Below, piece by piece: positions 25,220 to 32,096 of a stretch of 64,000 nucleotides of DNA (position 1 is the first letter of the stretch; every line of letters begins with the position of its first letter). Both the position numbers and the translations under genes were made by a program. The notes below the pieces were generated by a model that saw only the letters and a list, made by a program, of their open reading frames with translations, was not told the DNA's origin and ran no database searches. Origin of the DNA: Psychrobacter sp. P11G3 (GTDB lineage Bacteria; Pseudomonadota; Gammaproteobacteria; Pseudomonadales; Moraxellaceae); the NCBI RefSeq assembly GCF_001435845.1, contig NZ_CM003596.1, positions 2,339,198 through 2,403,197 of the forward strand, in the 5' to 3' direction.

Positions 25220-27427
25220 TTACTTTGCTTTGGACAAAATTGTTAGTGGTTGAGCTCCTTTGAACCTTAGCAAGCGTAAAGCATTGAGAGTCACTAGTAC
25301 CGTTGCACCAGTGTCCGCTATCACAGCAATCCATAGTCCGGTAATACCCAGTACAGTAGTGATTAGAAACACGGCCTTTAGTCCTAGAGCAAAAATTACA
25401 TTTTGATGTATGTTGGCCATGGTTGCACGCGATAAGGCAATGAGATGAGCAACATCTGTAACACGACTTTTTAATAATGCTATATCGGCTGTTTCAATAG
25501 CAACATCCGTACCGCCACCCATGGCGATGCCCACATCTGCTGTTGCTAATGCTGGCGCATCGTTAATACCATCACCAATCATCGCTATCTTGCTATTATC
25601 CTTCATCTCATTGAGCAAACGTAGCTTATCTTCGGGCAACAACTCAGCTTGCCATTCTATCTCTAAATGACTAGCAAGCGCCTGAGCGGTCAGATGGTTG
25701 TCACCCGTGAGCATCACAGAGCGCACACCCATCGCTTTGAGCTGAGCCACTCCTTCTTGAGCATCATCTCGCAACTCATCTCGTAATGCTATCAATCCAA
25801 GCACTTCACTACTTTGCTCATCATACAAAACTGAGACAGTCTTGCCTTCCTTTTGCAATACTTCAATGTCTGCCTGTTGGTCCATTGACAGCAAGCTTTT
25901 TTCAGTTGCATAGACTGGTGATCCAATGGCTAAAGGGCGATCAGCTACCGTTGCATGTACTGCTTTTCCCGCAGTAACATAAGCTTTGGAAGCCACTGGT
26001 ATGGATGTCTGGGCAGCTTTAGCATGATCGATAATAGCTTTTGCAAGTGGATGGCTAGAGGCGGATTCAACGCTGGCAAACAGCGCTAGTATCTCATTAT
26101 GACCTTCAGACCCTATGCTTTCTTGTACTGATAGCTTCTGTGTAAAGGCAATCACGTTGGTCACCTGTGGCTTACCTTCAGTCAACGTACCTGTCTTGTC
26201 AAAAGCCACGACATTTACGCGACCAATGATTTCTAAAGCGCTGCCCCCTTTGATAAGTAAGCCTCGGCGTGTACCGACAGCCAATCCTGATGCAATGGCA
26301 GCCGGAGTAGATAATACAAGTGCACAAGGACAGGCGATTAGCAACAGTGCAAAACCACGATATAGCCAAGTCGACCATTCACCTCCCATCGCTAGCGGCG
26401 GAACAATAATAACCAGTGCAGCGATAGCCATCACCGCTGGGGTGTAATAACGACTGAATTTTTCAATGAAGCGAGCCGTAGGGGCTTTAGAGGCTTGCGC
26501 CTGCTCTACCAGATTGATAATGCGTGCGATAGTGTTGTCAGCAGCTGTCTTTTGTACACGGATTTGCAGCGCTCCATCCATATTGATTGATCCTGCAAAT
26601 ACTGCATCGCCCATGTCTTTAGCAACGGGTATGGATTCGCCAGTGACAGGTGAGTCATCAAGACTAGAGCTACCTTGAACAATGACACCATCAGCAGATA
26701 CTTTATCGCCAGGACGTACCAATACCAGATCATCGATCTGCAACGAAGCTGCAGGAACGTCATGCTGTCCGCCTTGTGCATCAAGTAAAATCGCAGTCTT
26801 TGGAACCAATGATGCCAATGCTCTGATACCAGCACGGGCACGATCTGCTGCCACACCTTCTAACAATTCACCGACTGAGAACAAAAAGACAACCGCCGCC
26901 GCCTCTTCAGCTTCACCAATGATAAGTGCACCAATTGCCGCGATAGACATCAGCATTTCAATAGAAAACAGGGTGCCTGTCATTGCCAAGGTCATAGACT
27001 TTCGGGCAAAAGGGAAAACACCCACAATGACGGCAATAGCAAATGCCCACATGCCATAATCAGGGAAAAGTAATGCCAACGCGTAGGCGACACTCATCAA
27101 GACGCCGAGACCAACCACTTGCTTACCTTTTCTGGTTTGCCACCAACGCTGTGGCTGCGTATTTAATAGATTATCACTAATGCTGTCTGCTGCGTTTGCT
27201 TGATCAGTAGTGGCAGATATGCCAAAACCCAGACGCTTGATGGTCTTTTCAATATCGCTGCACTGAGTATCTGAATCAGGGGCAAGCGATAGCTCTAACT
27301 TTTCAGTCGCAAAATTAAGCTGTATGTCAGAAACACCGGGCATACGTGCTAATGCAGTTTCGATTTTTCTGACGCAACTGGCACAGTCCATACCTTCAAT
27401 ACGATATTGCATAATAAACTGCCTCAT
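25220..27427 (-). CDS. Heavy-metal translocating P1B-type ATPase (Zn/Cd/Pb exporter, ZntA/CadA type)
   Basis: Exports divalent soft metals at the cost of ATP. The 735-residue protein has an N-terminal HMA domain with GMDCASC, a membrane domain, the actuator TGES loop (DSPVTGESIPV), the ion-channel motif CPC in LIACPCALVLSTPAA, phosphorylation site DKTGTLTEGKP, the HP motif (SSHPLAKAI) and GDGINDAPALATADVGIAMG. The C-terminal membrane pair has the Asp in ADTGATVLVTLNALRLL typical of Zn/Cd/Pb pumps. An ATG at 27412 is an alternative start. The promoter and divergent MerR regulator (27601) point to metal induction. Confidence 0.94.
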   Translation of the reverse strand: MRQFIMQYRIEGMDCASCVRKIETALARMPGVSDIQLNFATEKLELSLAPDSDTQCSDIEKTIKRLGFGISATTDQANAADSISDNLLNTQPQRWWQTRKGKQVVGLGVLMSVAYALALLFPDYGMWAFAIAVIVGVFPFARKSMTLAMTGTLFSIEMLMSIAAIGALIIGEAEEAAAVVFLFSVGELLEGVAADRARAGIRALASLVPKTAILLDAQGGQHDVPAASLQIDDLVLVRPGDKVSADGVIVQGSSSLDDSPVTGESIPVAKDMGDAVFAGSINMDGALQIRVQKTAADNTIARIINLVEQAQASKAPTARFIEKFSRYYTPAVMAIAALVIIVPPLAMGGEWSTWLYRGFALLLIACPCALVLSTPAAIASGLAVGTRRGLLIKGGSALEIIGRVNVVAFDKTGTLTEGKPQVTNVIAFTQKLSVQESIGSEGHNEILALFASVESASSHPLAKAIIDHAKAAQTSIPVASKAYVTAGKAVHATVADRPLAIGSPVYATEKSLLSMDQQADIEVLQKEGKTVSVLYDEQSSEVLGLIALRDELRDDAQEGVAQLKAMGVRSVMLTGDNHLTAQALASHLEIEWQAELLPEDKLRLLNEMKDNSKIAMIGDGINDAPALATADVGIAMGGGTDVAIETADIALLKSRVTDVAHLIALSRATMANIHQNVIFALGLKAVFLITTVLGITGLWIAVIADTGATVLVTLNALRLLRFKGAQPLTILSKAK

Positions 27428-27451
27428 TATAAGAATTCATTTGATAACGCT

Positions 27452-27482
27452 ATTGTGAACCCTCTAGTGGCTTCAGAGTCAA
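27452..27482 (-). promoter_or_regulatory. MerR-type metal-responsive promoter/operator of the P-type ATPase gene
   Basis: On the minus strand -35 TTGACT (27482-27477) and -10 CACAAT (27457-27452) are separated by 19 bp. The spacer, with the end of the -35, forms the dyad ACTCTGAAG...CTAGAGGGT, close to the operators known for CadR/PbrR-type regulators. The regulator encoded just beyond is expected to activate this promoter by untwisting it when metal is bound. Confidence 0.8.
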
Positions 27483-27600
27483 GGCCGTTTATATGCAATT
27501 GTATAAACTTGATTTCCTTATGGCTAAACCTTATAGTTACTTTAATGTTTTCAGTTTTGAAATGACTTTGAAATAACTTCAAGAGAACTGTGAGGTAACT

Positions 27601-28032
27601 ATGCTAATAAAGATCGGCGAGCTTGCTAAGCGCACAGGCGCTACAGTAGAAACCATTCGCTATTATGAAAAAGAAAAGCTATTACCAGAACCTTCCCGTA
27701 GTGAGGGGAATTATCGCTTATATCGCGAAAGTCATATCGAGCGTCTACAGTTCGTTCTGCACTGTCGTACACTAGATATGACATTGGATGAAGTACGGAC
27801 CTTACTTAAGTACTGGGAAGAGCCTAGCAGAGATTGCGCTGATGTCGATACCTTGTTGGATGAACATATCCGCGCTGTAGAAACACGTATAGAAGAGCTA
27901 AAACAGTTGAAAAAACACTTAAGTGTTTTGCGACAGAAATGCGTCAGTAGCGCACCAGCGAAGTCATGTGGCATATTGAATGCACTTGCTGATCATTCTT
28001 GTCATGAAAATTCGCCATATGGCTCACATTAA
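27601..28032 (+). CDS. cadR: MerR-family metal-responsive regulator (CadR/PbrR type)
   Basis: A metal sensor that activates the divergent ATPase gene. The 143-residue protein has the MerR HTH (KIGELAKRTGATVETIRYYE), the coiled-coil dimerisation helix and, in the metal-binding region, Cys in RDCADVD, QKC and KSCGILNAL, the pattern seen in Cd/Pb sensors of the CadR/PbrR subgroup. The C-terminus is Cys/His-bearing (DHSCHENSPYGSH), another feature of CadR, where it forms an extra metal site. Divergent arrangement with a 19-bp spacer promoter between the genes fits classical MerR control. Confidence 0.9.
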   Translation: MLIKIGELAKRTGATVETIRYYEKEKLLPEPSRSEGNYRLYRESHIERLQFVLHCRTLDMTLDEVRTLLKYWEEPSRDCADVDTLLDEHIRAVETRIEELKQLKKHLSVLRQKCVSSAPAKSCGILNALADHSCHENSPYGSH

Positions 28033-30913: not shown

Positions 30914-31687
30914 TTAAATAAGCTCATCGTTTCGCAGAGTAAGAACTTCATAGCCGTCAGAAGTAACCGCAATCGTATGTTCCCATTGAGCAGATAACTT
31001 TTTATCATTGGTGATTACGGTCCAGCCATCTTTTTTGACTTTAACTTTGGCTTTACCTTGATTGACCATCGGTTCAATGGTAAATGTCATACCTTCTTGT
31101 AGGACTAGACCTTTTCCTTGATGTCCGTAATGTAGCACTTGCGGTCCCTCGTGCATTTCGCGTCCAATACCATGGCCGCAATACTCTCGCACTATTGAAT
31201 AGCCTTGCTTCTCAGCGTAACTTTGGATGGCATGGCCAACATCGCCTAGCGTTGCTCCAGGTTTCACCACTCGTATTCCTTCCCACATGGCTTCATAGGT
31301 CTGATCAACCAAGCGTTTTGCAAGGGGCAACACCTCACCTATCAAATACATTTTGCTAGAATCAGCGATAAAACCCCCTTGTTCTAGGGTAATATCTACA
31401 TTCACAATATCACCTGATTTGAGTATTTGCTGCTCTGAAGGAATACCATGACAGACCACGTTATTCACTGAGGTATTCAATGCATATTGGTAACCATACT
31501 GACCCTTACTGGCTGGACGTGCACCTAACTGATCAATAATATAGTGCTCAGCAAGGTTATTGATGTCCATCGTAGAAGTACCGACTGTAATTTTCTCATC
31601 GAGATAATCAAAGACAGAGGCTAGAAGTCGCCCAGACTCGCGCATGATTTCCAATTCCACTGCATTTTTAAGTATGACCTTATCCAT
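30914..31687 (-). CDS. map: Type I methionine aminopeptidase, coupled to a ParD-like gene
   Basis: Removes the initiator methionine from new proteins. The 257-residue enzyme has all five metal ligands in order: Asp in VNVDITLEQGGFIADSS (both Asp), His in GHGIGREMHEGPQ, Glu in TFTIEPMVN, and Glu in SAQWEHTIAV. The housekeeping map gene normally lies beside rpsB; this copy instead follows a ParD-like antitoxin gene with an 8-bp overlap (31680-31687), so translation is coupled. The start ATG at 31687 has GAGGAA upstream. It looks fully active by residues; whether it is a second aminopeptidase in this genome cannot be seen here. Confidence 0.92.
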   Translation of the reverse strand: MDKVILKNAVELEIMRESGRLLASVFDYLDEKITVGTSTMDINNLAEHYIIDQLGARPASKGQYGYQYALNTSVNNVVCHGIPSEQQILKSGDIVNVDITLEQGGFIADSSKMYLIGEVLPLAKRLVDQTYEAMWEGIRVVKPGATLGDVGHAIQSYAEKQGYSIVREYCGHGIGREMHEGPQVLHYGHQGKGLVLQEGMTFTIEPMVNQGKAKVKVKKDGWTVITNDKKLSAQWEHTIAVTSDGYEVLTLRNDELI

Positions 31688-31886
31688 CTATAAGGTTCCT
31701 CACATTGACATCAGCTTGTCTCATTTGCTCATTGATAATTTGGTTGTAAGACATATTGGGGTTGGCTTCAGCAAGCATGCCTATCTTCATCCAATATTCA
31801 GCTTGAGCGTTGATGGAGCGCACCATGACGGCACTTGCTTTACGAATATCTTCATGCAGTTCATCATCAATTTTAACAATACCCAT
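31680..31886 (-). CDS. ParD-like ribbon-helix-helix antitoxin family protein
   Basis: A 68-residue protein of the ParD-like family. It starts with a short beta segment (MGIVKIDDELHEDIRKAS), then helices MVRSINAQAEYWMKIGMLAEANP and MSYNQIINEQMRQADVN, as expected for a ribbon-helix-helix DNA binder. The neighbour is not a ParE-type toxin but a methionine aminopeptidase whose start lies inside the end of this gene. Three 11-bp direct repeats lie over the promoter (31900-31932), the sort of array such proteins bind to repress themselves. Family assignment is from pattern; antitoxin activity is not shown. Confidence 0.75.
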   Translation of the reverse strand: MGIVKIDDELHEDIRKASAVMVRSINAQAEYWMKIGMLAEANPNMSYNQIINEQMRQADVNVRNLIDG

Positions 31887-31899
31887 AAAAACACCTTAA

Positions 31900-31946
31900 T
31901 ATATGAAACGTATATGAATCGTATATCTATTTTTGTATGGTTGCAA
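31900..31946 (-). promoter_or_regulatory. Promoter and 11-bp repeat array of the parD-like/map operon
   Basis: On the minus strand -35 TTGCAA (31946-31941), 17-bp spacer and -10 TACGAT (31923-31918). Direct repeats TATATGAAACG (31900-31910) and TATATGAATCG (31911-31921) with a partial third copy TATAT (31922-31926) overlap the -10 and start site. The 11-bp phasing places each copy on the same face of the helix, as expected of an operator. Confidence 0.6.
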
Positions 31947-32020
31947 GAAATTATGTATCGCTTGAACTCGATTTCCTTATATCGAAATTCTTTGAGCTAA
32001 ACTATAGCTTGATACTGATA

Positions 32021-32052
32021 GCAAAAAACCACCTATTAAGGTGGTTTTTTGC
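32021..32052 (-). terminator. Terminator of the arginine catabolic operon
   Basis: Perfect 14-bp inverted repeat (32021-32034 with 32039-32052) containing A- and T-tracts on both sides; it can act in both directions. Confidence 0.85.
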
Positions 32053-32096
32053 TCAGATGTGGTGACGTGGTGTAGCCAGCTTTTAGAAAGTTCTAT

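Follow-up and report, generated by a model that had tools for sequence, protein, structure and literature searches.

The 64,000-nucleotide stretch of Psychrobacter sp. P11G3 analyzed here (contig NZ_CM003596.1, positions 2,339,198 to 2,403,197; hereafter the window) contains a short gene for a ParD-like protein of the Pfam family PF11903, which overlaps a map gene encoding a type I methionine aminopeptidase (MAP). The small protein and this extra MAP form one conserved gene pair that, from comparison of genome sequences, is widespread among bacteria. We consider it probable that the pair is an accessory MAP cassette that encodes an autorepressor of its own and seems to descend from a toxin-antitoxin (TA) operon, with MAP in the toxin's place. 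The initial annotation of this DNA had reported an 8-bp overlap of the two genes, which is confirmed, and the layout of a self-repressing TA operon with a complete MAP in the toxin position, which is right by gene order, overlap, and operator. The features of the locus are as follows.

30914..31687, minus strand: type I MAP (map), 257 amino acids, catalytic residues intact, extra copy
31680..31886, minus strand: PF11903 (ParD_like) protein, 68 amino acids, start MGIVKIDDELHED, predicted ribbon-helix-helix autorepressor
31680..31687, minus strand: 8-bp start/stop overlap ATGGATAA of the small-protein gene and map
31892..31897, minus strand: likely ribosome-binding site AAGGTG, 5 nt 5' of the ATG (by eye)
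31899..31926, minus strand: predicted operator, three RTATAY units at 11-bp spacing, ATATAC GATTC ATATAC GTTTC ATATAT
31918..31923, minus strand: likely -10 hexamer TACGAT, overlapping the first operator unit (by eye)
31941..31946, minus strand: likely -35 hexamer TTGCAA, 17 bp from the -10 (by eye)

The small protein scores 83.3 bits against PF11903 (cut-off 23), and the map product scores 301.8 bits against TIGR00500 (cut-off 171.35), which places it among the type I methionyl aminopeptidases. Translation of the two genes may be coupled through their overlap.

Conservation and mobility of the gene pair

A first search of species genomes used the small protein as query with six seeds, one of them the N-terminal MGIVKIDD, and the best 80 of 255 relatives were kept; the nearest named relatives are from Psychrobacter. 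A MAP sequence lies directly downstream in all of these best 80; among them, L057 is cut off by the edge of its contig and L052 is frameshifted close to its end (L and G numbers are our labels for loci and genomes). Because one seed was the N-terminus itself, we also ran N-terminus-free searches, with a profile built from residue 8 onward and a match threshold of E 1e-12. With this profile, a PF11903 protein is present in 48 of 398 Pseudomonadota genomes and MAP is the next gene downstream at all 48 loci, seven of which were already known (the window, L110, L112, L113, L115, L118, and the G050 locus). The pairing, which the initial annotation had thought deserving of study, is therefore real and more general than the window.

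An earlier class-wide search of 369 genomes, likewise independent of the N-terminus, yielded 53 with a match at E 0.001 and 10 with a strong match (at least 67 bits); MAP is adjacent by coordinates in nine of these ten, and the tenth is the orphan L117. This orphan (L117:1480-1692) is a PF11903 gene of the kind found beside MAPs (hereafter MAP-type), is preceded by two exact operator units, and occurs in a genome with a single MAP match. In L062 (Aliidiomarina celeris, repressor at L062:4001-4207) the repressor is intact and the downstream MAP matches over residues 163-255 only. Gene spacing could be read at 89 loci with a script-assigned map start, among 95 that hold both genes (the window counted twice): the genes overlap by 8 bp at 69 of them, are separated by 1 nt at 15, and by 9 nt at one, while at the remaining four the script chose an implausibly early map start.

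The two genes also occur together. Across 57 relatives, the 14 MAPs of the pair's clade adjoin the 14 MAP-type PF11903 genes, and among 36 genomes of the window's genus, 11 contain both the extra MAP and a MAP-type PF11903 gene and 25 contain neither. One genome of this genus, G033 (loci L009, L024, L028), encodes two different MAP-type pairs together with a PF11903 gene of the branch associated with ParE-like toxins (ParE-type).

Chance neighbourhood or hitchhiking, with the pair an inherited gene order without function, was considered as an explanation. However, the nearest large flanking open reading frames (ORFs) in 71 loci fall into 48 groups upstream and 48 downstream, so the pair stays while its flanks vary widely; two MAP lineages are involved; and the operator is conserved in both alpha- and gammaproteobacteria. 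We found no support for this explanation and regard it as highly improbable.

The pair appears to be mobile between genomic contexts. The small protein matches 162 plasmid records, and map is the next gene in all six annotated plasmid records examined, which label the two products "ParD-like family protein" and "type I methionyl aminopeptidase" with no link stated; three further plasmid records are unannotated at the site. One plasmid with map beside the ParD-like gene is pAs1069_a of Acinetobacter seifertii (L179); there, as on plasmid 3 of Psychrobacter urativorans (L176), a recombinase family gene adjoins map, and near the pair on pAs1069_a lie a class D beta-lactamase gene and an insertion sequence. 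A Salmonella-plasmid copy of the pair had no near match by megablast in 20,395 E. coli records. A phage origin was considered and set aside, the small protein having no match in phage records at E 1e-5; MAP genes occur in 40 records of the phage collection (among those listed, H41-H50), all less than 60% identical to the pair's MAP. A link to defence was likewise discarded, as neither protein matches PADLOC at E 0.01. We found no description of a PF11903-map pair among the matches listed, the subscription literature being mostly outside their scope; the accessible part of PMC3948609 has a single fosmid with MAP and TA genes that are not paired, and that of PMC6796979 names map on plasmids.

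The predicted operator and repressor

The initial annotation described 11-bp direct repeats with a partial third copy over the promoter. The repeat copies are real (31900-31910 and 31911-31921), but the array is better described as three RTATAY hexamers 11 bp apart that overlap the likely -10. Allowing up to two mismatches, the triple operator has a sole match in the window, with 0 mismatches, where 0.14 are expected. Across the 3.28-Mb genome, sites with one or two mismatches number 8, against 11 for a reversed control pattern, so only the exact triple operator exceeds chance. It occurs once in the whole genome, and a regulon of further targets was therefore rejected, no second target being seen. 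An AT-rich tract (G000:C3:6853-6904; L170, L173-L175) contains overlapping near-matches with one or two mismatches, a count within that of the reversed-pattern control.

To count operator units across loci, the 110 bp upstream were scanned for hexamers spaced exactly 11 bp apart, each allowed no more than one mismatch. At least three units are present in 94 of 112 upstream regions (0.4 in shuffles), and an exact adjacent pair of units is found in 88 (0.3 in shuffles); near-copies are among the 112, as are the orphan L117 and L062 with its truncated MAP. The loci with at least three units reduce to 81 distinct upstream sequences, with the consensus ATATATGATTCGTATACGTTTCGTATA. In the N-terminus-free set, at least three units occur in 37 of 48 regions and at least two in 43. 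Upstream of weaker PF11903 relatives, in contrast, none of 24 regions has three or more units and three have two units with mismatches; six of these controls (L122, L126, L130, L134, L136, L137) have no toxin-like ORF listed downstream.

The promoter hexamers TTGCAA and TACGAT were not listed by a generic promoter scan, as they share 8 of 12 bases with the consensus and the scan threshold is 9. Comparison across loci, using 111 upstreams (the 112 without the orphan L117), finds TTGCAA-N17-TACGAT in 15, TTGCAA-N17-TATGAT in 10, and the core pattern TTG[AC]NN-N16-18-TANNNT in 66.

Based on its sequence, the small protein probably binds DNA and is a predicted autorepressor of the ribbon-helix-helix type. 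All 48 members of alignment A2 match PF11903 at E 0.001, and ParD_like is placed under the Met_repress clan in the accessible part of PMC7354421. The model of the small protein (pLDDT 85.5) has helices at residues 8-21, 25-41, and 47-57 and, as a monomer, lacks a strand. Many of its leading structural matches are what we take to be known ribbon-helix-helix proteins. It aligns ungapped over about 40 residues, with weak scores, such that Met1 falls on residue 4 of CopG, residue 9 of Arc, and residue 5 of PutA. The PDB contains no sequence relative (best E 1.4).

With CopG, Arc, and PutA the small protein would share its predicted fold, as well as an operator of short repeated units. It differs from them in that its chain begins at the position aligned with the first base-contact residue of Arc, in which Gln9, Asn11, and Arg13 contact bases (PMC12645479, accessible part). 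If the modelled register is correct, the initiator Met itself would therefore face the DNA.

Conservation is highest in the N-terminus and core. Among 44 MAP-type proteins, chosen so that no two exceed 80% similarity, its mean is 0.80 for the first 46 columns and 0.40 beyond them, compared with 0.65 and 0.51 in 17 relatives of the ParE-type branch, suggesting that the conserved part of the MAP-type protein is the predicted DNA-binding part. Arg23 is found in 89 of 89 distinct MAP-type proteins and in none of the 17 ParE-type proteins. The initial annotation had offered that the ParD-like protein regulates or inhibits the enzyme. The conservation of protein and operator sequences gives good support to the predicted control of map by the small protein. 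An inhibitor or antitoxin role is not supported, in view of the conserved N-terminal core, the absence of the tail motif described below, and a MAP of ordinary appearance, although the two proteins may still bind each other.

An additional MAP in a toxin-antitoxin setting

The genome, in 5 contigs, contains one PF11903 gene and two MAPs, the second of which is 48% identical to that of the pair. A count of map genes had been proposed in the initial annotation, which would have given up its reading had this been the only essential copy; that clause is inapplicable, because a second MAP is present in each checked genome with the pair. Of the 47 other pair-bearing genomes, 46 contain exactly two MAPs at E 1e-30 and one contains three, and all 36 genomes of the window's genus hold a MAP at 47-51% identity. 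From these distributions, the pair's MAP supplements the housekeeping MAP and does not replace it.

In a MAP tree of 85 rows, the linked MAPs form clade A (49 rows, support 100/100) and clade B (14 rows, support 100/98), and unlinked MAPs are placed between the two. The input comprised 22 hand-picked linked rows of a first tree, all 22 of its unlinked rows, and the new loci; one gene of clade A was entered twice (L013 = L194). In the first tree (105 rows), 82 of 83 linked MAPs form one group and L118, of clade B, stands apart. Left out of that tree are L001 and L109, which duplicate the window, L057 at the edge of a contig, L052 with its frameshift, identical rows, L113 and L142, whose starts the script had misplaced, and seven loci without a script-assigned start (L062, L088, L095, L100, L106, L108, L149). 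Two recruitments of MAP beside the same type of repressor are the simplest account of these sequences; loss of the link in the MAPs between clades A and B is possible and less simple. Because two MAP lineages occur beside the same repressor type, the link would be with MAP activity as such.

By its sequence, the pair's MAP resembles a normal, active enzyme. All 82 clade A rows agree at seven ligand and catalytic positions, which are invariant in clade B too and are those of the housekeeping type I MAPs (E. coli, PDB 1mat; PDB 4juq, 4fo7), which belong to the same sequence family. It differs from these in being an additional copy beside its own repressor and, in clade A, in its substrate pocket. 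At E. coli positions Tyr62, Cys70, and Phe177, which we take to form the S1 pocket, clade A has Gln, Asn, and Met in 49 of 49 rows, while clade B retains Tyr62 in 14 of 14 and Cys70 in 11 of 14 and has Tyr at 177 in all 14. A changed pocket is unlikely to be the purpose of the pair, because clade B lacks it and three unlinked sister MAPs share it, and this candidate explanation was weakened accordingly.

The ParE-type branch points to a relationship with TA systems. Weaker PF11903 relatives precede a ParE-like toxin gene: three partners match PF15781 (112.6, 123.2, and 127.1 bits), and by eye similar short proteins lie 3' of many weaker PF11903 matches. Among the 17 ParE-type proteins, partners were confirmed by Pfam for three and by eye from downstream ORFs for 11, while three (L020, L021, L025) were assigned by similarity only. 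A C-terminal [YF]xF motif, which may bind the toxin, occurs in 11 of the 17 and in none of the 89 MAP-type proteins. Compared with PF11903/PF15781 type II TA loci, the pair shares the Pfam family of the small protein, its position as the first gene, and a partner directly downstream, but has MAP rather than a ParE-like toxin as that partner, Arg23, a different operator, and no C-terminal motif. Since the weaker PF11903 members precede a ParE-like toxin, the cassette resembles a TA operon whose toxin may have been replaced by MAP. The pair would then suggest a route from a TA operon to a control circuit for a normal enzyme.

Alternatively, the pair could still be a type II TA system in which surplus MAP activity is harmful and the PF11903 protein binds and neutralises MAP. 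Several defining features of such systems are present (an antitoxin-family gene placed first, an overlapping partner, and repeats over the promoter), and the ParE-like partners of weaker relatives, carriage on plasmids, and the absence of this MAP clade without a repressor among the 57 relatives (14/14 linked) point in the same direction. However, the partner belongs to no known toxin family, being a MAP by both Pfam and NCBIfam; its catalytic positions are those of the housekeeping enzyme; and sequence comparison revealed no sign that it is a toxin. The tail is variable and lacks the ParE-type motif in 89 of 89 proteins, a weak argument as toxin binding by this motif is itself presumed. To our knowledge MAP has not been described as a toxin, and its overproduction, routine in E. 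coli protein expression, counts against that role. We therefore judge a MAP toxin unlikely. The repressor beside a truncated MAP in L062 and the orphan repressor L117 fit a cassette or a TA system equally.

Proposed regulation and surroundings of the pair

In the cassette model that we prefer, the PF11903 protein would bind the RTATAY array over its own promoter, as conservation of the sites suggests, and binding would keep the repressor and the extra MAP at a low level. The cue for derepression that we favour is how completely N-terminal methionine is being removed. The repressor starts as MAP prefers and so may report on MAP activity: a Met-Gly start is well trimmed by MAP, such a start is found in 48 of 48 N-terminus-free proteins, and Gly2 is present in 89 of 89 distinct MAP-type proteins, with all four Gly codons in use. 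Starts in the N-terminus-free set were chosen as those nearest a fixed distance from the conserved Arg. In the 112-locus operator count, the starts of L110-L118 and L176-L184 came from a pattern that itself requires Gly at residue 2; L110-L118 were also found without this demand, and for L176-L184 six annotated starts agree, while L180, L181, and L184 rest on a tblastn match from residue 1.

The initiator Met would thus ordinarily be removed from the repressor. Under MAP shortage it would stay on, DNA reading would be altered, and map expression would rise. We offer tentatively this role of the repressor as a sensor of MAP activity, in which the retained or removed Met decides repression of the reserve MAP gene. 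Should it be correct, N-terminal methionine excision would be subject to feedback from a transcription factor that the enzyme itself edits.

The conservation data apply equally to a plain autoregulated backup MAP, possibly stress-tolerant, that responds to another cue such as metal state, oxidation, or repressor proteolysis, with the Met-Gly start serving no sensing function. Such a backup is the cassette model minus the sensor step, and the two readings overlap. The changed pocket of clade A, with its loss of Cys70, speaks for such a backup, but clade B lacks this pocket and three unlinked sisters have it. A plain backup also by itself leaves the invariant Gly2 and the N-terminal register unexplained, as well as the recruitment of two MAP lineages. 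It is a possible reading to which we give limited credence.

Methionine removal, an essential process, acts on a large proportion of bacterial proteins. With an extra MAP and a repressor that is probably a MAP substrate, the pair would provide a direct handle on whether this process is under feedback control. It is also relevant to drugs aimed at MAP, since inhibition of the enzyme could turn on a reserve copy.

Beyond the promoter, one further feature may delimit the pair; a terminator scan of the window listed none at this position.

32020..32053, no strand assigned: perfect inverted repeat of 15 bp and a T-run, a likely terminator separating the pair from the next gene

Elsewhere in the window, visual inspection of the translations indicates genes at positions 25220-28032 for a P-type ATPase of the heavy-metal type and for a divergent MerR-like regulator.
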